The position numbers and the translations under genes were made by a program. Shown here piece by piece: positions 35,649 through 58,285 of a DNA stretch of 64,000 nucleotides (positions are counted from its first letter, which is position 1; every line of letters begins with the position of its first letter). The stretch is from Hydrogenimonas cancrithermarum (lineage in GTDB: Bacteria; Campylobacterota; Campylobacteria; Campylobacterales; Hydrogenimonadaceae). The notes beneath the pieces were generated by a model. The model searched no databases. It was not told where the DNA came from and saw only the letters and a list, made by a program, of their open reading frames with translations. The DNA lies in the NCBI RefSeq assembly GCF_030296055.1, contig NZ_AP027370.1, forward strand, positions 496,001-560,000, given 5' to 3'.

Positions 35649-36377
35649 ATGCGGGTTAAAGCGGTCATCGCCTATGACGGGGCGGCTTTCTACGGATTTC
35701 AGGCACAAACGACGACACCCAAGACTGTCTCCGGCGCGCTGAGCAGAGCGGCTGCTAAACTCGGTATCCACGCCCCCATTGTCGGAAGCGGCCGAACCGA
35801 CCGGGGGGTCCATGCGACCGGACAGGTAATCCACTTCGACCTACCTTCTCACTGGCACAACGACTTGGGAAAACTCAAAACCTTCTACAACCGCCTTTTG
35901 TCCCCCCATATCCAGATCAAAACCATCACCCCCGTCGACGATACGTTTCATGCCCGGTTCGATGCCAAACGGCGTATCTACCGCTATCTCTTCAAGTCGA
36001 CACCGCCGACACCGTTTGAGAATCTCTATGCCTGCCACCTGCACCACAGCGATCCTGAAAAACTTCGTATCGCCCTCGAACGCTTTGAAGGTACCCACGA
36101 CTTTTACTATTTTCATAAAAAAGGGAGCGATCCTGGATCGACCGTCCGAACCATCATTCGTACCGATGTCAAAGCCTTTCGCCGCTACATCGTGCTCTAT
36201 ATCGAAGCCAACGGCTTTCTGCGCTCGCAGGTCAGAATGATCGTCGGCGCGGCCACAGCCGTCATGCATGGCACGTTGACACTCGAGCAGATCGATGAAC
36301 AGTTGGCGAAAAAAGCGATCCATACCACGATGTTGGCCCCTCCGCAGGGACTCTACCTGGCACGGGTCATCTACTAA
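35649..36377 (+). CDS. truA: tRNA pseudouridine(38-40) synthase
   Basis: Isomerises uridines 38-40 in the anticodon arm of tRNAs. The catalytic Asp lies in GSGRTDRGVHATGQ. YDGAAFYGFQAQ at the N-terminus and GFLRSQVRMIVGA near the end are diagnostic. 242 residues. Starts three bases after lptF and ends the glmU-to-truA run, converging with the L,D-transpeptidase gene. Confidence 0.96.
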   Translation: MRVKAVIAYDGAAFYGFQAQTTTPKTVSGALSRAAAKLGIHAPIVGSGRTDRGVHATGQVIHFDLPSHWHNDLGKLKTFYNRLLSPHIQIKTITPVDDTFHARFDAKRRIYRYLFKSTPPTPFENLYACHLHHSDPEKLRIALERFEGTHDFYYFHKKGSDPGSTVRTIIRTDVKAFRRYIVLYIEANGFLRSQVRMIVGAATAVMHGTLTLEQIDEQLAKKAIHTTMLAPPQGLYLARVIY

Positions 36378-36398
36378 ACCAACGCAAGCCTACGATCT

Positions 36399-37043
36399 TC
36401 AATCCGAAACAAGGATAAATGGAACCTGTTTCGGATCGAGCCATTGGACCAACTCGACCATCCGATCGCGCTTCATCGCCACACAGCCGGCCGTCGGTTT
36501 GTCACCGCTGGCGATATGCAGAAAAATGCATGACCCCCTGCCGGGTCGGCGCGCTTGGTTATAGCCGACCGTCACCACCACTTCGTAAAGCGCATCGTCT
36601 CGTCTCATCCACTCGAAACTCCGATAATCTTTTTTGACATTCGATGCCTCGACAATGCGGTTGTAGTACCTCGAACGGCTGTCATCCACGCAGATCGTAT
36701 CATTCGTCGAAAGGAAAAAAGGCATGGCGGTTTGAATATCGTGGTAACCGTAGACATCCTCGAGCCCGTAATATCCGGCAGGGGTTTTTCCATCCCCTTC
36801 TCTCTCTTTGCCGATGCCGTTGCGCCCTATTGAAACAGGCCAAGCATCTCCGACTCGATGCCACACGCCATGCACTTTTTCAAAGCGTGCCAACCGTGCG
36901 TGGTACCCTCTGACATCAAACACTTTCACCAACTGCTTCGTTTCGGAAGGAAGCGCTTCGAAATCATCCTTTCCAAAACCAAAAACTGCTAAAATACTCC
37001 ACACAAGGAGTATCATTGCAGGAAAGTTACGGCGTCTATTCAC
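36399..37043 (-). CDS. L,D-transpeptidase (YkuD/ErfK family), exported
   Basis: Periplasmic peptidoglycan-modifying enzyme. The GTG at 37043 is chosen because GGAGG (37053-37049) lies five bases upstream. It gives 214 residues with a basic n-region (MNRRRNF) and a hydrophobic helix (MILLVWSILAVFGFG) as signal or anchor. The ATG at 37016 has no such site. The catalytic block has HIASGDKPTAGCVAM with the active Cys near residue 190, matching the HxxxxxxxxSxGCxxM pattern of the family. The first 28 bases of the gene overlap the start of the divergent nhaC-type gene. Confidence 0.9.
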   Translation of the reverse strand: MNRRRNFPAMILLVWSILAVFGFGKDDFEALPSETKQLVKVFDVRGYHARLARFEKVHGVWHRVGDAWPVSIGRNGIGKEREGDGKTPAGYYGLEDVYGYHDIQTAMPFFLSTNDTICVDDSRSRYYNRIVEASNVKKDYRSFEWMRRDDALYEVVVTVGYNQARRPGRGSCIFLHIASGDKPTAGCVAMKRDRMVELVQWLDPKQVPFILVSD

Positions 37044-38398
37044 TTTTGCCTCCGCTCATTGCGATCGTTCTGGCCATTATATCAAGAAACGTCATCGTCT
37101 CGCTCCTCATCGGTGTGGTGAGCGGCTACTTCATCATGGAACAGAGCATCGTCGGGGCGCTACTCGAAAGTTCGAAAGGGATCGTGTCGCTTTTCGAAAA
37201 GGGGTGGGTCGTCAAGACACTCGTTTTCGCCATCTTCGTCGGATCCATCATAGAACTGATCCAGCGAAGCGGCGGCGTCGACGGCTTCGTCCACTTTCTG
37301 CAAAAAAAGAAAAAGCTCGTCACCAACAAGAAAGAGGCGGAGCTGCTCGCTTTTTTCATCGGCCTGGCCATCTTTATCGAATCCTCGATCACTTCACTCA
37401 TCGCCGGCGCCGTCAGCCGGCCCCTGACCGACAAGAACGGCACATCACGCGAAAAACTGGCCTACATCTGCGACTCAACCGCCGCACCGGTCTGTACGAT
37501 GTTCCCTCTCAACGCATGGGGCGCTTTGCTGCTGGGGCTCATCGGATCGCAAGTGGAAGCGGGAGTCATCACCGGCGAGCCGATCCGATTGCTCGGGAGT
37601 GCGCTGGTTTTCAACTTCTACGCACTTTTTTCGATTCTGCTGGTGCTCTATACGATTCTCGCCGGTATCGATTTTCCGGCTTATACGAAAGTGGAAACGC
37701 CTCATTTGGAGTTTTCCGAAAAAGAGGGTGACATCTTCGCGCTGATCGTACCGATCGCCTCTTTGCTGATTCTCGTTTTCGTTTTCCTTTTTATCACGGG
37801 AGGCGGCGACATGCTGAAAGGAGATGGCTCCACCTCGGTCTTTGCCGCCGTACTGGGGTCCATCGTCATTTCATCGCTCTACTATCTTGTCAAAAAGAGC
37901 ATGCCGGCCGAAGAGATTCTTCCCGCCATCTGGCGCGGTGCAAAAACGATGGTCCCGATCGCGGCGATTCTGATCTTCGCATTCGCCATCGGCGATGTTA
38001 CGGTAAAGATGGGCACAGGCATCTATATGGCCCATTTTGCCAATGCCATTCTCCATCCGGCACTTCTGCCGGCCGGCATTTTCCTGCTTTCAGCCATCAT
38101 CGCCTTTTCGACCGGTACGAGCTGGGGAACCTTCTCCATCATGATGCCGATCGCCATCACAATCGCCACGAACACGGCTACCGGTACCGAAACCCTCTTG
38201 CCGCTCGTCATCGCAGCCGTCATCTCGGGCGGCGTCTTCGGCGACCACGCTTCACCCATTTCGGATACCACCATCATCTCGGCGATGGCGGCCGGATGCG
38301 ACCTCATCGCCCATGTCAAGACCCAGCTGCCCTGGGCGCTGCTGGCGGCATTTTTGTCGATTCTCTTCTTTCTTCTTTTCGGCTATCTGGCACTATAG
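37016..38398 (+). CDS. NhaC-family Na+/H+ antiporter
   Basis: Inner-membrane antiporter of 460 residues with about ten to twelve membrane segments. Family blocks visible are FFIGLAIFIESSITSLIAGAVSRPL, DSTAAPVCTMFPLNAWGA, FSTGTSWGTFSIMMPIA and GGVFGDHASPISDTTIISAMAAG. It starts with TTG at 37016, supported by AAGGAG (37005-37010) with a five-base spacer. Na+/H+ exchange is the family default, but other NhaC relatives exchange malate/lactate. It is divergent from and overlaps the L,D-transpeptidase gene, and its 3' end overlaps the hydrolase gene by six bases. Confidence 0.9.
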   Translation: MQESYGVYSLLPPLIAIVLAIISRNVIVSLLIGVVSGYFIMEQSIVGALLESSKGIVSLFEKGWVVKTLVFAIFVGSIIELIQRSGGVDGFVHFLQKKKKLVTNKKEAELLAFFIGLAIFIESSITSLIAGAVSRPLTDKNGTSREKLAYICDSTAAPVCTMFPLNAWGALLLGLIGSQVEAGVITGEPIRLLGSALVFNFYALFSILLVLYTILAGIDFPAYTKVETPHLEFSEKEGDIFALIVPIASLLILVFVFLFITGGGDMLKGDGSTSVFAAVLGSIVISSLYYLVKKSMPAEEILPAIWRGAKTMVPIAAILIFAFAIGDVTVKMGTGIYMAHFANAILHPALLPAGIFLLSAIIAFSTGTSWGTFSIMMPIAITIATNTATGTETLLPLVIAAVISGGVFGDHASPISDTTIISAMAAGCDLIAHVKTQLPWALLAAFLSILFFLLFGYLAL

Positions 38399-39043
38399 GT
38401 GATCGACGAACCACTCTTTCGCCAGTTCGGCGACCGTTTCGAGCGTTCCGGGCTCTTCGAACAGATGGGTCGCACCCGGAACGATCTTCATCGCTTTTTC
38501 GCACCGCAGTGCGTCGTAAGCCGCTTCGTTGAGCTCGATAACGCCGAAATCGTTGCCCCCGACGATCAGCAGTGTCGGTGCCGTGACACGTTCGAGCACA
38601 TCGGCCGCGAGGTCCGGCCGCCCCCCACGCGAAACGATCGCTCCGATTGGCCGTTTCGCAAGAACACTCGCTTTCAGTGCCGAAGCTGAACCGGTGCTGG
38701 CACCGAAATATCCCACTTTCATCTCCTTCAGAAGCGGTTGTGACCCAACCCATTCGGTCGCCAACAACAGCCGCGATGCAAGAAGATCGATGTCGAAAAC
38801 GTTACGACGGTCCATCGCCTCCTCTTCCATCAACAGATCGAACAGAAGCGTCGCGATACCCGCTTCATGCAGTACACTCGCTACATAGTTGTTGCGCCGG
38901 CTCAAGCGGCTGCTCCCGCTTCCATGTGCGAAGATGACGATCGAAGTCGCCTCTTCCGGAATGGCCAACAGCCCGGGCAGAACCACCTCTTCGGAGGCGA
39001 TAACCACGCCCGCTTGCAGGGCCATGAATCGATCGACCGTCAT
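38393..39043 (-). CDS. Alpha/beta hydrolase, dienelactone-hydrolase-like
   Basis: A 216-residue cytosolic alpha/beta hydrolase. The oxyanion segment IFAHGSGSSR precedes the nucleophile elbow GYFGASTGSASAL (Ser). A later Asp (GGNDFGV) and His (ATHLFEEPG) complete a credible triad. It resembles small dienelactone-hydrolase/phosphoribosyl-transferase-associated hydrolases. It lies three bases after the MEMO gene stop, so it belongs to the radical SAM-MEMO-hydrolase operon. Substrate unknown. Confidence 0.85.
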   Translation of the reverse strand: MTVDRFMALQAGVVIASEEVVLPGLLAIPEEATSIVIFAHGSGSSRLSRRNNYVASVLHEAGIATLLFDLLMEEEAMDRRNVFDIDLLASRLLLATEWVGSQPLLKEMKVGYFGASTGSASALKASVLAKRPIGAIVSRGGRPDLAADVLERVTAPTLLIVGGNDFGVIELNEAAYDALRCEKAMKIVPGATHLFEEPGTLETVAELAKEWFVDHL

Positions 39044-39046
39044 GGT

Positions 39047-39850
39047 TTATCCTTTCAAAAATGCCGCACTCATGTAACCCACCACCTGTGACGTGTCGCC
39101 GCTGGCGTCCGCACTGGTGCGATAGTCGAGCAACATTGGCTCGAGCCCAAGGTTACGCGCCGCGATCAATATCGCTTCGACACCGATTTTTCCACACGCT
39201 TCACACCCTCGATGCAATCCTGCCGGATCGAGCTTGCTCACCGCATCGAGACAGATACTGTCGAGCCGTTTCGCCTTCTCGATATCGTAGTAGTGGCTAA
39301 GGTCCGTACTGATGACGACACCCGTCTGTGGATCGCTCAAAAGCCACTCGATGACGGGGGCGAGGTTTGTCGGGTTTTCATCGCCATAGACCAGTTCGAC
39401 GACGCGTGCATCGGGCAGATAGGTCTTGATGAATGGCATCTGCACTTCGGTACTGTGCTCGTGGTGTGCCTCTGGAACGAAACCGAGACCGAACTTCTGA
39501 ATCAATTCTGTCGCCAGGTTCCTGTCGATCGGCAGATCGCCCAACGGTGTCTCGAATAGATCGTATTCACTGACACTGGTGCCCTGCAGGTAGACCCGAT
39601 GGCTCGGCCCGATCACGACAACACGTTTGACACCACTGTTGCCCAACAGCCGGTGGGCGATGTTGGCCGTAAAGCCCGAATAGACATACCCTGCGTGCGG
39701 TACGATCACCGCCTGCGTCGCCGTCTGCAAAAGCTTCGGATCGCGAACGCTCTCCTCCAGCACCTTGTTGAAATGGTCGATCATCATTTTGATCTCTTCG
39801 GGTGATGCCGGGTAAAACTGTCCAGCCACCGCCGCTTCTCTGATTCGCAT
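39047..39850 (-). CDS. MEMO-family protein (AmmeMemoRadiSam system)
   Basis: A 267-residue protein of the MEMO1 family, a dioxygenase-like fold related to extradiol dioxygenases. Metal-site-like histidines are in VPHAGYVYSG, IGPSHRVY and STDLSHYY. The Cys motif HRGCEACGK is typical. Start ATG 39850 is chosen because AAGGAGG lies eight bases upstream and MRIREAAVAGQFYP is the normal family start; an ATG at 39871 is possible. In many prokaryotes MEMO occurs with AMMECR1 and a radical SAM enzyme. AMMECR1 is not found in this locus. The human homologue binds iron or copper; function in bacteria is unknown. Confidence 0.93.
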   Translation of the reverse strand: MRIREAAVAGQFYPASPEEIKMMIDHFNKVLEESVRDPKLLQTATQAVIVPHAGYVYSGFTANIAHRLLGNSGVKRVVVIGPSHRVYLQGTSVSEYDLFETPLGDLPIDRNLATELIQKFGLGFVPEAHHEHSTEVQMPFIKTYLPDARVVELVYGDENPTNLAPVIEWLLSDPQTGVVISTDLSHYYDIEKAKRLDSICLDAVSKLDPAGLHRGCEACGKIGVEAILIAARNLGLEPMLLDYRTSADASGDTSQVVGYMSAAFLKG

Positions 39851-39867
39851 TTTATTTTCCTCCTTCG

Positions 39868-40860
39868 TCATTTCCAGATTCCCTCGATCGCCCGGTTACA
39901 CTTCGGACAGTGCCCGTCGATCAGTCTGTTCACCGTTACATTATACCCCGTCCGGTCGATCAACAGTTCGCCGCAGTCGGGACAGTGTGTATCGCCATGC
40001 ACGGGAACGTTACCGAGATAGACATAGTGAAGTCCCGCCTTCTTCGCGATCGATTTGGCCCGCATCAACGTGTCGACACCGGTCCATTTGTGGTCTTGCA
40101 TCTTGTAATCGGGATGAAACGCGCTCAAGTGCCAAGGTACATGGCGCCCAAGGTCGTTCGCGATGAACTCGGCCATCTCGGTCAAGTCTTCGTCACTGTC
40201 GTTTTCTCCCTCTATCAGCAGTGTCGTCACCTCGACCCAGATCCCCCCGTCCACCATCATGCGAAGGGTATCCTTGACCGCTTCGAGACCGCCTTTGAGC
40301 ACTTTTTTGTAGTACCCTTCGTCCCAGCTTTTGAGGTCGATGTTCGCCGCATCGAGCCAACTCGGCATATCTTTGACGATCTCCGGACTCTCGAAGCCGT
40401 TGCTGACGAAAATGTTCTTCAGCCCACGCGCTTTGGCGATCACGCCGATATCTTTGGCATACGGATAGAAGATGGTCGGCTCGTTGTAGGTATAGGCGAT
40501 CGACTTCGCACCGTACTCTTCGGCCAGATCGACCATTTTTTCCGGACTGACATAGACCTCTTCGTTGACCTTCGTCTCCTGCGAAATCTGCCAATTTTGA
40601 CAGAAGGGACACTTGAAGTTACACCCTACGGTGCCGAACGAAAGCGCCGTCGTGCCCGGCAGCATATGGTAGATCGGTTTCTTCTCGACCGGATCGACGT
40701 TGAGTGCGCTCGGATGGCCGTAGACCAGCGTCTTCAGCTCACCGCCGACGTTTTTGTTGACCCCGCAGATACCGACCTGCCCCTCTTTCATCTTGCAATA
40801 GTGCCGACAGAGCAGACAAACGATTCGGTTCTTTTCAGGTTCGGTTTTGTAATATCGCAT
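39868..40860 (-). CDS. Radical SAM enzyme of the AmmeMemoRadiSam system
   Basis: A 330-residue radical SAM protein. The SAM-binding cluster motif is CNFKCPFC (C80, C84, C87). Upstream, four cysteines at about 15, 18, 22 and 32 (CLLCRHYC, ICGV) could hold another metal centre. The C-terminus has a zinc-ribbon-like pair CPDC..CPKC. The whole matches the AmmeMemo-associated subfamily related to pyruvate formate-lyase activating enzymes. No glycyl radical partner is present. First gene of its operon, with a strong promoter and a leader able to hide or expose its Shine-Dalgarno sequence. Confidence 0.94.
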   Translation of the reverse strand: MRYYKTEPEKNRIVCLLCRHYCKMKEGQVGICGVNKNVGGELKTLVYGHPSALNVDPVEKKPIYHMLPGTTALSFGTVGCNFKCPFCQNWQISQETKVNEEVYVSPEKMVDLAEEYGAKSIAYTYNEPTIFYPYAKDIGVIAKARGLKNIFVSNGFESPEIVKDMPSWLDAANIDLKSWDEGYYKKVLKGGLEAVKDTLRMMVDGGIWVEVTTLLIEGENDSDEDLTEMAEFIANDLGRHVPWHLSAFHPDYKMQDHKWTGVDTLMRAKSIAKKAGLHYVYLGNVPVHGDTHCPDCGELLIDRTGYNVTVNRLIDGHCPKCNRAIEGIWK

Positions 40861-40905
40861 TTTAGCCTCCTTTTATGAGGCAACTTTATGATCATAGCCT
40901 CAATC
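40861..40905 (-). promoter_or_regulatory. Switch-like mRNA leader of the radical SAM-MEMO operon
   Basis: Minus-strand 5' to 3': TGAGGC (40902-40897), 15 bases, GCCTCA (40881-40876), six bases, then GGAGGC (40870-40865), and four bases later the ATG. The middle GCCTC can pair either with the first GAGGC (6 bp) or with the GAGGC that contains the Shine-Dalgarno sequence (5 bp). Thus two mutually exclusive hairpins exist, one exposing and one hiding the ribosome site. Pairing is read directly; any ligand or temperature response is conjecture. Confidence 0.6.
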
Positions 40906-40912
40906 TGTAGCT

Positions 40913-40941
40913 ATTTTAACTTTTTTTAAGCTTTTTGTCAA
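40913..40941 (-). promoter_or_regulatory. Sigma-70-type promoter of the radical SAM-MEMO-hydrolase operon
   Basis: Minus strand TTGACA (40941-40936), a 17-base A-rich spacer, and TAAAAT (40918-40913). Eleven of twelve consensus bases match. Transcription would begin near 40906, leaving a leader of about 45 bases. Confidence 0.78.
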
Positions 40942-40975
40942 GAAATTTTTAAGGTTCAAAAACTAAAATGGCGTT

Positions 40976-41794
40976 ATGACAAACACGACCGAAGCAGTGA
41001 AAAAAATAGTTCGAGATGCAGATGCCATCCTCGTCACGGCCGGGGCGGGAATGGGCGTCGATTCTGGCCTGCCGGATTTCAGAGGAAACGAAGGGTTTTG
41101 GAATGCCTACCCCGTCGCCAAAAAACTGGGGCTCGGTTTTGTCGAACTCGCCAATCCGCAGTGGTTCGAATCCGACCCCGCGCTCGCCTGGGCTTTCTAT
41201 GGACATCGCCTTCACCTCTATCGCGATACCTTTCCACACGCAGGCTTCTCATTGCTGCTCGATCTGGCGAAAAAGAAAGAGGAGTATTTCGTTTTCACCT
41301 CCAATGTCGACGGCCAATTTCAAAAAGCGGGTTTCGATGAAGAGAAGATCGTCGAATGCCACGGGAGTATCCACCACCTTCAGTGCACACAGTGCAATGC
41401 CGGTATCTGGCGGGCAGACAACGTGACGCTCGATATCGATATGGAAAATTTCAAAGCGGCCGACTGGCCCCATTGCTTTCAATGTGGAGCCACGGCACGC
41501 CCCAACATCCTGATGTTCGGCGACTGGGGATGGGACGGAAGTCGCACACAAGGCCAGGAAGAGCGGTTCGACGACTTTTTGAAACGCATCATCGTCAAAA
41601 AACTGAAACTCGTCATCATTGAAATCGGGGCCGGTACCGCCGTTCCGACGGTTCGGCTGACCGGCGAGGAAATCGCCCGGAAACTCGATGGGAGACTCAT
41701 CCGCATCAATCCCCGCGAATCCGGGATCGATCCCCCTTTTGGCTATGGCTTGCCGGCAGGTGGGCTGGAAGGGATTCGAGCACTCCTCACATAG
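40976..41794 (+). CDS. Sir2-family NAD-dependent deacylase, divergent subgroup
   Basis: A 272-residue sirtuin-like protein. The NAD-binding motif is TAGAGMGVDSGLPDFRG, the TSNVDGQFQKAG block replaces the usual TQNID, and ECHGSIHHLQC holds the catalytic His. Zinc cysteines are CTQC and CFQC. PNILMFGDWGWDGSRT differs from the canonical PxVVxFGE, so substrate preference is uncertain. The gene is divergent from the radical SAM-MEMO operon with 115 bases between starts. Confidence 0.88.
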   Translation: MTNTTEAVKKIVRDADAILVTAGAGMGVDSGLPDFRGNEGFWNAYPVAKKLGLGFVELANPQWFESDPALAWAFYGHRLHLYRDTFPHAGFSLLLDLAKKKEEYFVFTSNVDGQFQKAGFDEEKIVECHGSIHHLQCTQCNAGIWRADNVTLDIDMENFKAADWPHCFQCGATARPNILMFGDWGWDGSRTQGQEERFDDFLKRIIVKKLKLVIIEIGAGTAVPTVRLTGEEIARKLDGRLIRINPRESGIDPPFGYGLPAGGLEGIRALLT

Positions 41795-41849
41795 TTGTCA
41801 CGAAGGCGGCAAGGTGGCGTCGATCGTCGCCGTTTCCATTCGAAAAAGT

Positions 41850-43010
41850 TTACGCACATTTGAAAGTAATGTCGAAAAGAAGCACATGATCTTCGGTGCG
41901 TACTTCGAGTGACCCATCCATTTCTTCGGCGGAGAGGCGGACCAGTGTCATCCCGAGGCCACTGCCTTTTTTCAAAGATCGCAAATCCACCTTTTCTTGC
42001 CCTACCTGCCGATAAAAAAGTTGGCAGCGGCCCTCTTTCTCGACAAGCGTTATTTCGACTTCCGGTTGGCCACTCTGCACCCCATGGGCATGTTTCAATG
42101 TATTTGTATAGAGTTCATTCAATATCATACCGAGCTTGAGCATTGTCTCCAGAGGAAGAGAAATCCCGTCCGCACGGATTTTCGTACTTATGGTTCGTCC
42201 GTACGATTTCTGGATAAGATCGATCAGATTTTCGATATAGCCAGCCGCCTCGACACTTTCAAGATCCGCCGCTTTGTAGAGCGCTTCGTGCACCATCGCC
42301 ATCGTTTGGATACGTAACTTGTTCTTCGTCAGGATCTCCTCGATAGAATCGGCCCGTCCCCTTCGCAGACGGAGTATCTGCAATCCGAGCATCGAAGCGA
42401 TCTTGTTGAGATTGTTTTTGATGCGATGATGGATCTCTTTGATCAAAAGTTCTTTCTGCTTGTTGGCGTGTTCGAGTCTTTTATAGGTCACTTCCGTGGA
42501 GATGTGGTACAAAAAAGCGATAAGGATGACAACCAACGTCGTCGAAACCATATTCATGAGCGGTACAAGATGAAAAACGGGATTGTCGGCATTCTCGTTA
42601 TAGTTGTAAAGCGCAAACGCGATCCAGAAAACGTAGTGCCCGAGCGTAAGCCAGAGCGCTGTACGCAAAGTGAAAAAGAAGAAAAATCCAAAGATCGAAA
42701 AGAAGGGATAGATTGTCACGAAATCGTAAAAATGGCCACCGAACATCGCGGAAACACTTTCGAACTCGATCAAAATCAGAAAAAGCAGAGCAAAAAGAGG
42801 TGTATTGTACGAGTAACGGTATAAAGTGAGCAACAGTGCCATAATAACGGCCAGGGAGAGTTTGGTGTAAAAGATATCGGCATAGCCGACATAAAGCGCC
42901 ACCACTGCAAAAATGGCAAACAGCACGATCGTCGCGACAAAAAGCCCTGTCAGCATGATCATCTTATGATCTCTGCTTTCAAGAATGGTTTTAATGAGAT
43001 TTTCAATCAT
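41850..43010 (-). CDS. Membrane sensor histidine kinase, HisKA_2/HWE-like
   Basis: Inner-membrane kinase of 386 residues from ATG 43010. Five or six hydrophobic helices occupy about residues 17-175 with no large periplasmic domain. The phosphoacceptor block EIHHRIKNNLNKIASMLGLQ is of the HisKA_2 type. The ATPase part has ILNELYTNTLKHAH (N box) and GSGLGMTLV (G box). A longer start at 43058 would place the promoter -10 (TATAAT, 43023-43018) inside the coding sequence, so the shorter start is preferred. It is divergent from a response regulator gene and very likely its partner. The signal is unknown. Confidence 0.87.
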   Translation of the reverse strand: MIENLIKTILESRDHKMIMLTGLFVATIVLFAIFAVVALYVGYADIFYTKLSLAVIMALLLTLYRYSYNTPLFALLFLILIEFESVSAMFGGHFYDFVTIYPFFSIFGFFFFFTLRTALWLTLGHYVFWIAFALYNYNENADNPVFHLVPLMNMVSTTLVVILIAFLYHISTEVTYKRLEHANKQKELLIKEIHHRIKNNLNKIASMLGLQILRLRRGRADSIEEILTKNKLRIQTMAMVHEALYKAADLESVEAAGYIENLIDLIQKSYGRTISTKIRADGISLPLETMLKLGMILNELYTNTLKHAHGVQSGQPEVEITLVEKEGRCQLFYRQVGQEKVDLRSLKKGSGLGMTLVRLSAEEMDGSLEVRTEDHVLLFDITFKCA

Positions 43011-43017
43011 GAAATAT

Positions 43018-43023
43018 ATTATA
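43018..43023 (-). promoter_or_regulatory. -10 element of the histidine kinase gene
   Basis: Perfect TATAAT on the minus strand eight bases before ATG 43010. No clear -35 at normal spacing, which fits a promoter helped by an activator such as the neighbouring response regulator. The mRNA would be nearly leaderless. Confidence 0.4.
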
Positions 43024-43034
43024 GCGTTCGAATG

Positions 43035-43051
43035 TTGCAAAATCGTTGCAA
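43035..43051. promoter_or_regulatory. Paired TTGCAA palindromes between kinase and regulator genes
   Basis: Two TTGCAA hexamers, each self-complementary, at 43035-43040 and 43046-43051. They are 11 bases apart, about one helical turn, in the short divergent spacer. The arrangement looks like a dimer-of-dimers site for the response regulator; this is inference. Confidence 0.42.
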
Positions 43052-43105
43052 CGTTCATAGCGCCTCGTAAGCATCGTTGAAAATAATGAATGTTAGAATA
43101 ATTTC

Positions 43106-43783
43106 ATGAAAAAGAAAAGCATTTTTATCGTGGAAGACGATCTCGTATCCGCCCAGTATCTCAAAGAGGTTCTGGAAGTCGAAGGCTTCGATGTGGTCGG
43201 TATCGCCGACAGTGGGGAGGCTGCGATTTCACATCTCAAAGGGTGTCGAGCGGATATCGTTTTGATGGATATCATTCTGAAAGGATCGATGACCGGATCG
43301 GAAGCTGCTCTTTTCCTCAAACAGATGTATCCGGAGTGTAAAATCATTTTTCTGACCGCCTATGCCGATCAGGAGATGATCGACTACGCCGTCGATGCCA
43401 AGGCGTTTGCCTACCTGATGAAACCCTATCGGGAAAAAGAGATCATCGCCACGATCAAAACGGCATTGGCGAGAGAGAGCGAAGAGACAACAGAGCACTC
43501 GCTGACCATTCCTCTCAAAAACGGTTTTTCGTTCAACAAAGAGAAGCATCGACTCGAAAAGGATGGCAAAGAGATTCCACTCTCGGAAAAAAAACTGAAA
43601 CTCATCGAAATTCTGGCGGCCAACAAGAACAGCATCGTCTCAAACGAGCAACTGAGCATGCATATCTGGAGCGAACCGAAAAGCAACAGCACACTTCGCT
43701 CACTCATCAACCGCTTCCGTACCGCCGTCGGCGACGATATCATTACCAATGTCAATGGTGTCGGATACGCCGTTATCTCCTGA
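43106..43783 (+). CDS. Response regulator with receiver and winged-helix DNA-binding domain
   Basis: A 225-residue transcription factor of the OmpR type. The receiver domain (1-120) has acidic EDD near the N-terminus, phospho-Asp in VLMDIILKG, Thr in FLTAYAD and Lys in LMKPYREKE. The C-terminal winged helix (about 135-225) ends in RFRTAVGDDIITNVNGVGYAV. It is divergent from the HisKA_2-like kinase at 41850-43010. Pairing an OmpR-type output with a HisKA_2 kinase is common in Campylobacterota. Confidence 0.92.
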   Translation: MKKKSIFIVEDDLVSAQYLKEVLEVEGFDVVGIADSGEAAISHLKGCRADIVLMDIILKGSMTGSEAALFLKQMYPECKIIFLTAYADQEMIDYAVDAKAFAYLMKPYREKEIIATIKTALARESEETTEHSLTIPLKNGFSFNKEKHRLEKDGKEIPLSEKKLKLIEILAANKNSIVSNEQLSMHIWSEPKSNSTLRSLINRFRTAVGDDIITNVNGVGYAVIS

Positions 43784-43803
43784 ACTTCATGAAATCGCCG
43801 AAA

Positions 43804-44994
43804 TCATAACACGATGCGTTCTACATCGCCGTAAAGGCTCTTCCCTTCATACGGTGAATTTTCGAAACGCCCACAGCACTCTTTATCCGGATCGAAAAGA
43901 ATCAGGTCGGCATCGTATCCCACTGCTATTTTCCCTTTGTAACGATCGATCCCAACCGTCTCGGCCGGCCTGCAAGCCGTAAGTTTCGAGAGTTCCGGCA
44001 AGTCGATCATTCCCTCTTTCACCAGGAACGTATAGCAAAGCGGCAAGAAAGCGTTCAATCCGTCGATACCGTACTCCGCTTCCGAAAACACGGCATCTTT
44101 CGCACTGCCCGATACCGGCGTATGAAGTGCCGTCAGCATCGAGACGACACCGGATTTGAGGCGCTCGATCATCGCTCGGCGTGAAACCTCATCCCTAAGC
44201 GGAGGCCATATTTTTCCTGCGGTATTGTAGTTGTCGCAGAGAGTATCGGTCAAAAGAAGATGATGAAGCGGTACCTGCGCATGCAGATGAGGATTGGCAC
44301 TGCAAATCTCCAATGTCTGCGGTGTCGAAGCGGCCAGAATCACGACATCGACACCGTAATAGGATGCCAGTTCGCCGATACGGGCCACCTGTGACGATTC
44401 GGCAACGGCCGGCACGCCCCCAAGGCCGAGCCGGCTCGAAACTTCACCCTCATGCATGACACCGTCACCCTGAAGCGCCGGATCGTTGGCATGGCAGAAG
44501 AGCTTGATCCCATGCATCACGGCATATTCCATCAGACGGCGGATAAGATTTCCATCGATACTGCTGTCAAACTCGATCCCGACCGCTCCCTCTTTAAGCA
44601 AAATCGACGCATCGCTCAATTTTTCCTCATCCGTGACACCCGAAAGGAGCGTCAGAATCTTCGTATCACGGCAGAGTTCCGCCTGCGACTTGGCGAATTC
44701 CAGCGTAATTTCATTGTCGATGCGCGGCGTACAGAGTGAAGAGATCACGACGGTTCCAAATCCGTTGACGTAGGCATTGGCCGAGAGTTTTTCGAGCGTT
44801 CCGCCCCGCAATCTACCATCCATGACGCCGACACCGATATCGATCATCGCCGGCATCAGATAGCGGCCGCCGGCATCCAAAGATTCACCGCCTAAAAGGC
44901 CCTCTCCCATCTGCGCAATCTTTCCATTCTCTATCCGGACATCGATCGCTTCGACCCTTTCGGGGGTTACGACCTTCGCATTTGTAATGACCAT
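43804..44994 (-). CDS. Dihydroorotase homologue lacking metal ligands (PyrC'/PyrX-like)
   Basis: A 396-residue amidohydrolase-fold protein aligned over its length with class I dihydroorotases. The zinc motif DxHxH is replaced by MIDIGVGVMDG, and the late catalytic Asp motif (TDHAPH) by TALHTPVSG. FCHANDPAL and HLHAQVPLHHLL remain. The protein is therefore very likely not an active dihydroorotase. In Pseudomonas a similar inactive homologue (PyrC'/PyrX) is a structural partner of aspartate transcarbamoylase, and the same role is a fair guess here. No pyrB is in the window. It stands alone, divergent from a cytochrome c gene. Confidence 0.85.
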   Translation of the reverse strand: MVITNAKVVTPERVEAIDVRIENGKIAQMGEGLLGGESLDAGGRYLMPAMIDIGVGVMDGRLRGGTLEKLSANAYVNGFGTVVISSLCTPRIDNEITLEFAKSQAELCRDTKILTLLSGVTDEEKLSDASILLKEGAVGIEFDSSIDGNLIRRLMEYAVMHGIKLFCHANDPALQGDGVMHEGEVSSRLGLGGVPAVAESSQVARIGELASYYGVDVVILAASTPQTLEICSANPHLHAQVPLHHLLLTDTLCDNYNTAGKIWPPLRDEVSRRAMIERLKSGVVSMLTALHTPVSGSAKDAVFSEAEYGIDGLNAFLPLCYTFLVKEGMIDLPELSKLTACRPAETVGIDRYKGKIAVGYDADLILFDPDKECCGRFENSPYEGKSLYGDVERIVL

Positions 44995-57785: not shown

Positions 57786-57794
57786 TTCAACATC

Positions 57795-57820
57795 TTAGCA
57801 CTTATTTTCTGAAATGCCAA
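57795..57820. promoter_or_regulatory. Degenerate CIRCE-like operator upstream of hrcA
   Basis: TTAGCACTT, an 8-base spacer and AAATGCCAA. The two arms match the CIRCE arms TTAGCACTC and GAGTGCTAA at eight and six of nine positions; the spacer is one base short of the usual nine. It covers the likely transcription start of the hrcA promoter. Confidence 0.5.
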
Positions 57821-57824
57821 GAGG

Positions 57825-57854
57825 ATTATACAACATTGAGTGTATAGTTGTCAA
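57825..57854 (-). promoter_or_regulatory. Consensus promoter of hrcA-grpE-dnaK
   Basis: Minus strand TTGACA (57854-57849), an 18-base spacer, and TATAAT (57830-57825): all twelve consensus bases present. Such a strong vegetative promoter needs repression, in line with the flanking operator-like sites. Confidence 0.82.
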
Positions 57855-57855
57855 G
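57835..57855. promoter_or_regulatory. HAIR-like site (HspR) overlapping the hrcA promoter
   Basis: ATTGAGT-N7-TGTCAAG. The arms match the HspR consensus CTTGAGT and ACTCAAG at six and five of seven positions with the exact 7-base centre. The right arm overlaps the -35 box. Confidence 0.5.
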
Positions 57856-58285
57856 TATATTCAACTGAATTACATAAGTACTTCACTGCTTTCAATACAT
57901 ATCATACACTTTCCGCTCGTTCCAGTCTCCCACTGTATCCGGATTTTTCGGATCTTGATTTCGGCTTTGATGGACACATGTATTACACTACAGCGTTTTT
58001 ATCGATAGGAAACGATGGGAGGGTTTTTCTCTTTACGAAAAGAGTGGTAGATGGGAAATTCAGTGTACGCCATTTTCCCATTCGATGGATATCGGCAGTA
58101 TGATACGAGACCACGATCATTGAAAAATATCATATCACACGCGATGTCCGATAGAACAATGCCGAGATTTATGTAGATTTATGTTTAAAAATTCGTAAAG
58201 AGTTTTTCTGGGGATGAAGAAAAGACGGGGAGTGAACGACGACAACCAAAAGACGATCGTCTATTGGTTGTCGTCTATTGGCTAA
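57856..58285. other. Gene-free stretch between hrcA promoter and rpsO
   Basis: About 430 bases in which no credible gene is seen. Short open frames have atypical composition and no ribosome sites. It holds an imperfect inverted repeat GGGAAA/TTTCCC (58050-58078) and a large hairpin at 58239-58274. No tRNA or known RNA was recognised. Confidence 0.6.
58239..58274. repeat. Large perfect hairpin downstream of rpsO
   Basis: Arms ACGACAACCAA (58239-58249) and TTGGTTGTCGT (58264-58274) pair over 11 bp. Inside is the self-complementary AGACGATCGTCT (58251-58262), flanked by an A-A mismatch. The whole can form a nearly closed 36-base stem or a cruciform. On the rpsO strand it lies 12-47 bases after the stop codon, so it may serve as terminator or mRNA 3' protector; no T-run follows. 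Confidence 0.65.

Follow-up and report, generated by a model that had tools for sequence, protein, structure and literature searches.

What does the short leader of an AmmeMemoRadiSam operon do for the genes that it precedes? Both bacteria and archaea carry AmmeMemoRadiSam genes, whose human relatives MEMO1 and AMMECR1 are under study in disease; for the system itself, our literature search returned just passing mentions, and found no paper that establishes its function in bacteria. The operon considered here lies in a 64,000-nucleotide stretch (hereafter the window; G000:C1:496001–560000) of the 2.38-Mb genome of Hydrogenimonas cancrithermarum. A preliminary description had read its leader as a minimal riboswitch or thermosensor, in which a middle block pairs with either of two neighbors and thereby frees or hides the Shine–Dalgarno (SD) sequence. 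The features on which the question turns, in window coordinates, are these:

39047–39871, minus strand: MEMO family protein (AmmeMemoRadiSam protein B), by PF01875 and TIGR04336
39868–40860, minus strand: AmmeMemoRadiSam radical SAM enzyme, by TIGR04337 (366 bits against a cut-off of 220)
40866–40870, minus strand: SD sequence GGAGG, within the third block; predicted open in the favored fold (P(unpaired) 0.76)
40876–40881, minus strand: 3′ arm of hairpin 1, GCCUCA; covaries with the 5′ arm, not with the SD region
40884–40889, minus strand: conserved word ATAAAG (order-wide ATMAAG), from orthologue comparison; in the loop of hairpin 1
40897–40902, minus strand: 5′ arm of hairpin 1, UGAGGC, from folds and covariation
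40899–40903, minus strand: conserved word TTGAG (order-wide TTKAG), from orthologue comparison; its TGAG opens the 5′ arm of hairpin 1
40913–40918, minus strand: −10 hexamer TAAAAT, with a 17-nt spacer to the −35
40936–40941, minus strand: −35 hexamer TTGACA, found in nearly all orthologous leaders

The radical SAM gene starts at an ATG at 40860 on the minus strand and overlaps the MEMO gene by 4 bp, with a sirtuin gene divergent to the operon. AMMECR1, the third partner, is located away from the operon in this genome; in G301 it lies directly 3′ of the MEMO gene (AMMECR1 assigned by eye). A dihydroorotase-like gene occupies 43804–44994 (minus strand), ~3 kb upstream of the operon. The same genome carries a second radical SAM paralogue (L345 3422–4447; G000:C1 about 1997421–1998446) that is 49% identical, begins MVADAWLSKEL, and has no such leader.

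The preliminary description placed its sequence features correctly: On the minus strand, GAGGC occurs at 40901–40897, GCCTC at 40881–40877—within the 3′ arm of hairpin 1—and GAGGC again at 40869–40865, together with the SD site and a near-consensus promoter. That promoter matches the consensus at 11 of 12 positions and is the best promoter-like site within 36000–44000. Its architecture of TTGAC, 17-nt spacer, and −10 is kept upstream of the conserved element (below) across the order, with the 17-nt spacer in 45 of 46 leaders under a scan that gave this length a slight preference. Judged from the promoter, transcription would start at ~40906 and yield a leader of ~46 nt. Directly upstream of the −35, AACCTTAAA (40948–40956, minus strand) is found again, at a similar distance, in most orthologues of the genus; it is not visibly present in other families and could be an activator site or UP element. 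A small upstream ORF overlapping the leader in the window was discarded as a candidate feature, because other species lack its ATG.

Folding of the window's own leader bears out the claim that the middle block can pair with either neighbor. Hairpin 1 (first and middle blocks; −8.8 kcal/mol at 37 °C) and hairpin 2 (middle block and SD; −7.8 kcal/mol) are alternatives that use one shared block and lie ~1 kcal/mol apart. An X…X′…X triple of at least 5 bp arises in 0.4–0.6% of dinucleotide shuffles of this leader, a frequency that concerns one leader only, singled out by eye from many. Folded as a whole, the window's leader is not unusual (z about −1). The window sequence alone decides nothing about folding.

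We therefore turn to orthologues, which were sought in the genus and in the order, identified through named relatives as Campylobacterales, and whose upstream regions were extracted for comparison. These regions share an element that the preliminary description had overlooked: TTKAG-N9-ATMAAG, upstream of the radical SAM gene. Within the genus, 13 of the 15 gene-bearing genomes carry TTGAG-N9-ATMAAG with constant spacing, followed by eight bases and the SD; in one of the 13 (L015), the element overlaps the −10 rather than following it. In L011 the first word is TTGAT instead of TTGAG; G016 has its radical SAM gene immediately after pyrC and hence no leader. Several further families of the order have the element before the gene as well, and in 42 of 46 leaders it lies 8–10 nt downstream of the −10 box. 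Because the word pattern served to select the leaders, it accounts for some of the conservation seen in the columns; around the persisting words, most flanking columns are now close to random.

Some lineages depart from this layout. The arrangement of G016, with the radical SAM gene right after pyrC and no leader element, is also found at loci of family f15 (L126, L141, L148, L173, and others). There, a candidate DNA operator upstream of the promoter was rejected, as ATAGTTTAG encodes the C-terminus of pyrC (Ile-Val-stop). Four leaders of the TTTAG type (L122, L295, L296, and L305) have no separate SD and place AUAAAG(G) ~8 nt before the assumed ATG, where it may itself act as the site of ribosome binding. 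The SD and start codon of several f5 g54 leaders (L282, L286, L287, L280, and L284) sit in a small palindrome, e.g., GGAGUCAUAAUGACUU, by which both SD and AUG are predicted to be closed; the window is not arranged in this way.

In a pattern scan of 399 genomes, the combination of promoter and words is in effect confined to a single site per genome, that of this operon; the remaining matches are dispersed, and most have no TTGAC promoter. A regulon was rejected on the same grounds of frequency: Bare TTGAG-N9-ATMAAG occurs 2–8 times per genome in the genus, about the chance level. A covariance-model scan of the window's own genome gave the operon site (31.1 bits) as its sole convincing match. 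The next two, at 25.1 and 24.4 bits, were dismissed as reverse strands of strong promoter-like sites before clpB and hrcA, and another match as a coding stretch. Within window positions 57786–57860 (minus strand), the hrcA promoter itself (TTGACA…TATAAT) is followed by a degenerate CIRCE-like inverted repeat before hrcA (57785–57000). A search of Rfam returned no family match and nothing near a gathering score. Across the orthologues, then, the comparison establishes that the two words are conserved, fixed in position relative to the promoter, and present in effect in one copy per genome.

Whether the flanking segments pair was assessed with a register-free swap test, in which the 5′ half of each leader (through the ninth variable base) was combined in turn with the 3′ half of every other leader. 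Across a set of 32 divergent leaders, the native combinations fold at −6.19 kcal/mol against −3.36 kcal/mol for swapped ones (sd 0.36, z −7.9, 0 of 20,000 permutations), and seven control windows offset by 18–90 nt gave no swap-test signal. The reverse complement folds less well (−3.92 kcal/mol), as expected if G–U pairs in RNA count. The signal is found in the genus alone (z −3.6) and outside it (z −6.4), holds when two of the strongest cases are removed, and persists without seven of them (z −4.2); the longest stems belong to L130, L113, and L009. A duplex version restricted to the 5′ and 3′ arms gave z −8.35. Covariation in the window's fixed register is modest (0.232 against 0.166 ± 0.026; 3 of 500 shuffles; slid versions 0.066–0.164) because pairing registers differ among leaders, and the same drift accounts for RNAalifold finding no consensus fold across leaders. 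This evidence from sequence comparison shows selection on hairpin 1 in leaders of the TTGAG type. Those of the TTTAG type retain both words and give no hairpin signal (n = 9, z −0.27), so the words are not there solely for the hairpin.

We read these results as a 5′-terminal leader hairpin with recognition bases that would act on the transcript and not as an SD-sequestering switch, a reading to which we give an even chance. The mRNA would begin, a few bases past the transcription start, with a conserved element of ~28 nt consisting of UUGAG, nine variable bases, AUMAAG, and eight further bases that close with the 3′ arm. The two halves of the element are predicted, in most lineages, to fold into a 5′-terminal stem-loop that presents AUMAAG in the loop and ends ~5 nt before the SD. 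The hairpin would work at the level of the transcript, where it would most likely protect the 5′ end against decay and leave the SD unpaired; for stabilization, the 5′ stem-loop of vacA in Helicobacter pylori, itself a campylobacterote, offers a precedent. A protein or small ligand may recognize the invariant bases and tune this effect. A more ambitious version, which we put forward tentatively and consider unlikely, is an undescribed, order-wide class of cis-regulatory RNA dedicated to the AmmeMemoRadiSam operon, a 28-nt 5′-terminal hairpin whose UUKAG and AUMAAG bind a ligand or protein of the pathway. If the words do bind a ligand, that ligand would reveal what this widespread system makes or senses. 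More generally, a dedicated order-wide leader, in effect one per genome, provides a handle: The protein, ligand, or stress that acts through it would point to the function of the operon.

The main rival is a DNA operator, in which the RNA hairpin would be secondary and the words would serve as paired half-sites for a dimeric regulator that covers the start site and is probably a repressor. The invariant bases read TTKA-N11-TMAA, an inverted repeat whose two-fold symmetry extends to the K/M degeneracy at matching positions; this symmetry comprises just 4 bp per half, however, so that chance is possible, and its spacing was set by the search pattern. The fixed distance to the promoter and the retention of the words in TTTAG leaders without the hairpin also fit an operator. 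So does L015, where the words are displaced 11 bp, one turn of DNA, toward the −35 and into the −10; TTGAG there would not be transcribed. The inverted repeat, the L015 shift, and the TTTAG leaders keep this rival standing. An operator does not predict, however, that variable segments should be complementary or that the transcript strand should fold better than its complement, and it sits uneasily with one site in effect per genome and an operon of radical SAM and MEMO genes that carries no regulator gene. We regard it as a serious minority possibility.

The reading from which the question arose, a ligand- or temperature-controlled switch whose middle block leaves the SD open when paired with the 5′ block and closes it by pairing with the SD itself, draws on the two nearly equal hairpins of the window and the rarity of the triple in shuffles. 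Hairpin 2, in contrast with hairpin 1, has not been kept by evolution. Compensatory change among orthologues, the test proposed for the switch, thus came out in favor of its open half (z −7.9, with clean control windows) and against its closed half: The 3′ arm, which contains the middle block, does not covary with the SD region over 30 leaders (duplex swap test z −0.62, P = 0.27) or within the TTGAG leaders (z −0.41), and neither the loop nor the 5′ arm does so over all leaders. Complementarity of the 3′ arm to the SD approaches the strength of hairpin 1 only in a few leaders of the window's genus, and strong pairing is limited to leaders whose 5′ arm is the SD-like UUGAGG. The complementarity of the middle block to the SD comes mainly from the SD-like character of TTGAG, the near-invariant word of the 5′ arm; a 3′ arm that complements an SD-like 5′ arm automatically complements the SD, and hairpin 2 is best seen as a by-product. 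On the orthologous leaders, then, SD pairing is not under selection. The thermosensor fares no better in the energy model, in which P(SD unpaired) is 0.76 at 15 °C and 0.80 at 55 °C and hairpin 1 is more stable than hairpin 2 throughout this range; with the SD equally open at both extremes, switch and thermosensor are left without support. A different closed state is conceivable in TTTAG leaders: Between their 5′ arm and the SD region there is weak complementarity (one of six tests; n = 10, z −2.8, P = 0.0013), which we treat as a lead only. Because the SD-hiding hairpin was not retained, the leader probably carries an undescribed element rather than an on/off switch, and we consider the switch quite improbable. 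The case illustrates how comparison can split a plausible single-sequence switch into one half that is real and one that is incidental.

A ligand-binding mini-riboswitch, with UUKAG and AUMAAG as the pocket and an expression platform missed by nearest-neighbor folding, is likewise doubtful. Orphan riboswitch candidates typically combine invariant unpaired bases with a variable stem and precede a single operon, and the present element has this look. It spans only ~28 nt, however, matches no Rfam family, and makes no conserved contact with the SD, and it keeps a fixed distance to the start site, at which aptamers are seldom found. That the leader has no function and is promoter-proximal sequence similar by descent, for which the few lineages without the element (e.g., G016, with the gene directly after pyrC) might speak, deserves hardly any credence: The words persist amid widely diverged surroundings, and the swap test, its control windows, and the subset repeats contradict it.

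Several known systems help to place the hairpin element. Like SD-hiding riboswitches and RNA thermometers, it has a middle arm that, in the window as in a small number of close relatives, can pair with the SD; unlike them, it lacks covariation for that pairing and a temperature response in the model. With the CIRCE operator of HrcA, an inverted repeat with an N9 spacer near the start, it shares inverted words, a 9-nt spacer, and a position between promoter and gene, but it differs in sequence, and the degenerate CIRCE-like site of this genome lies at hrcA. A comparative-genomic survey of 104 candidate cis-regulatory RNA motifs (PMC2864571) makes no mention in its text of a MEMO protein, a radical SAM enzyme, or epsilonproteobacteria. 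Like such orphan motifs, the element has a covarying stem and conserved bases upstream of one gene family, whereas it is smaller than most, drifts in register, and matches nothing in Rfam. The closest parallel is with 5′ UTR stem-loops that stabilize transcripts, as in H. pylori vacA, Escherichia coli ompA, and Acinetobacter baumannii recA (reviewed in PMC7509114). TTGAG leaders likewise have a selected stem-loop in the 5′ UTR—here at the very 5′ end, as the promoter places it—with a free SD downstream; in addition, the loop word and the stem base are conserved across the order, which a purely protective hairpin would not need.
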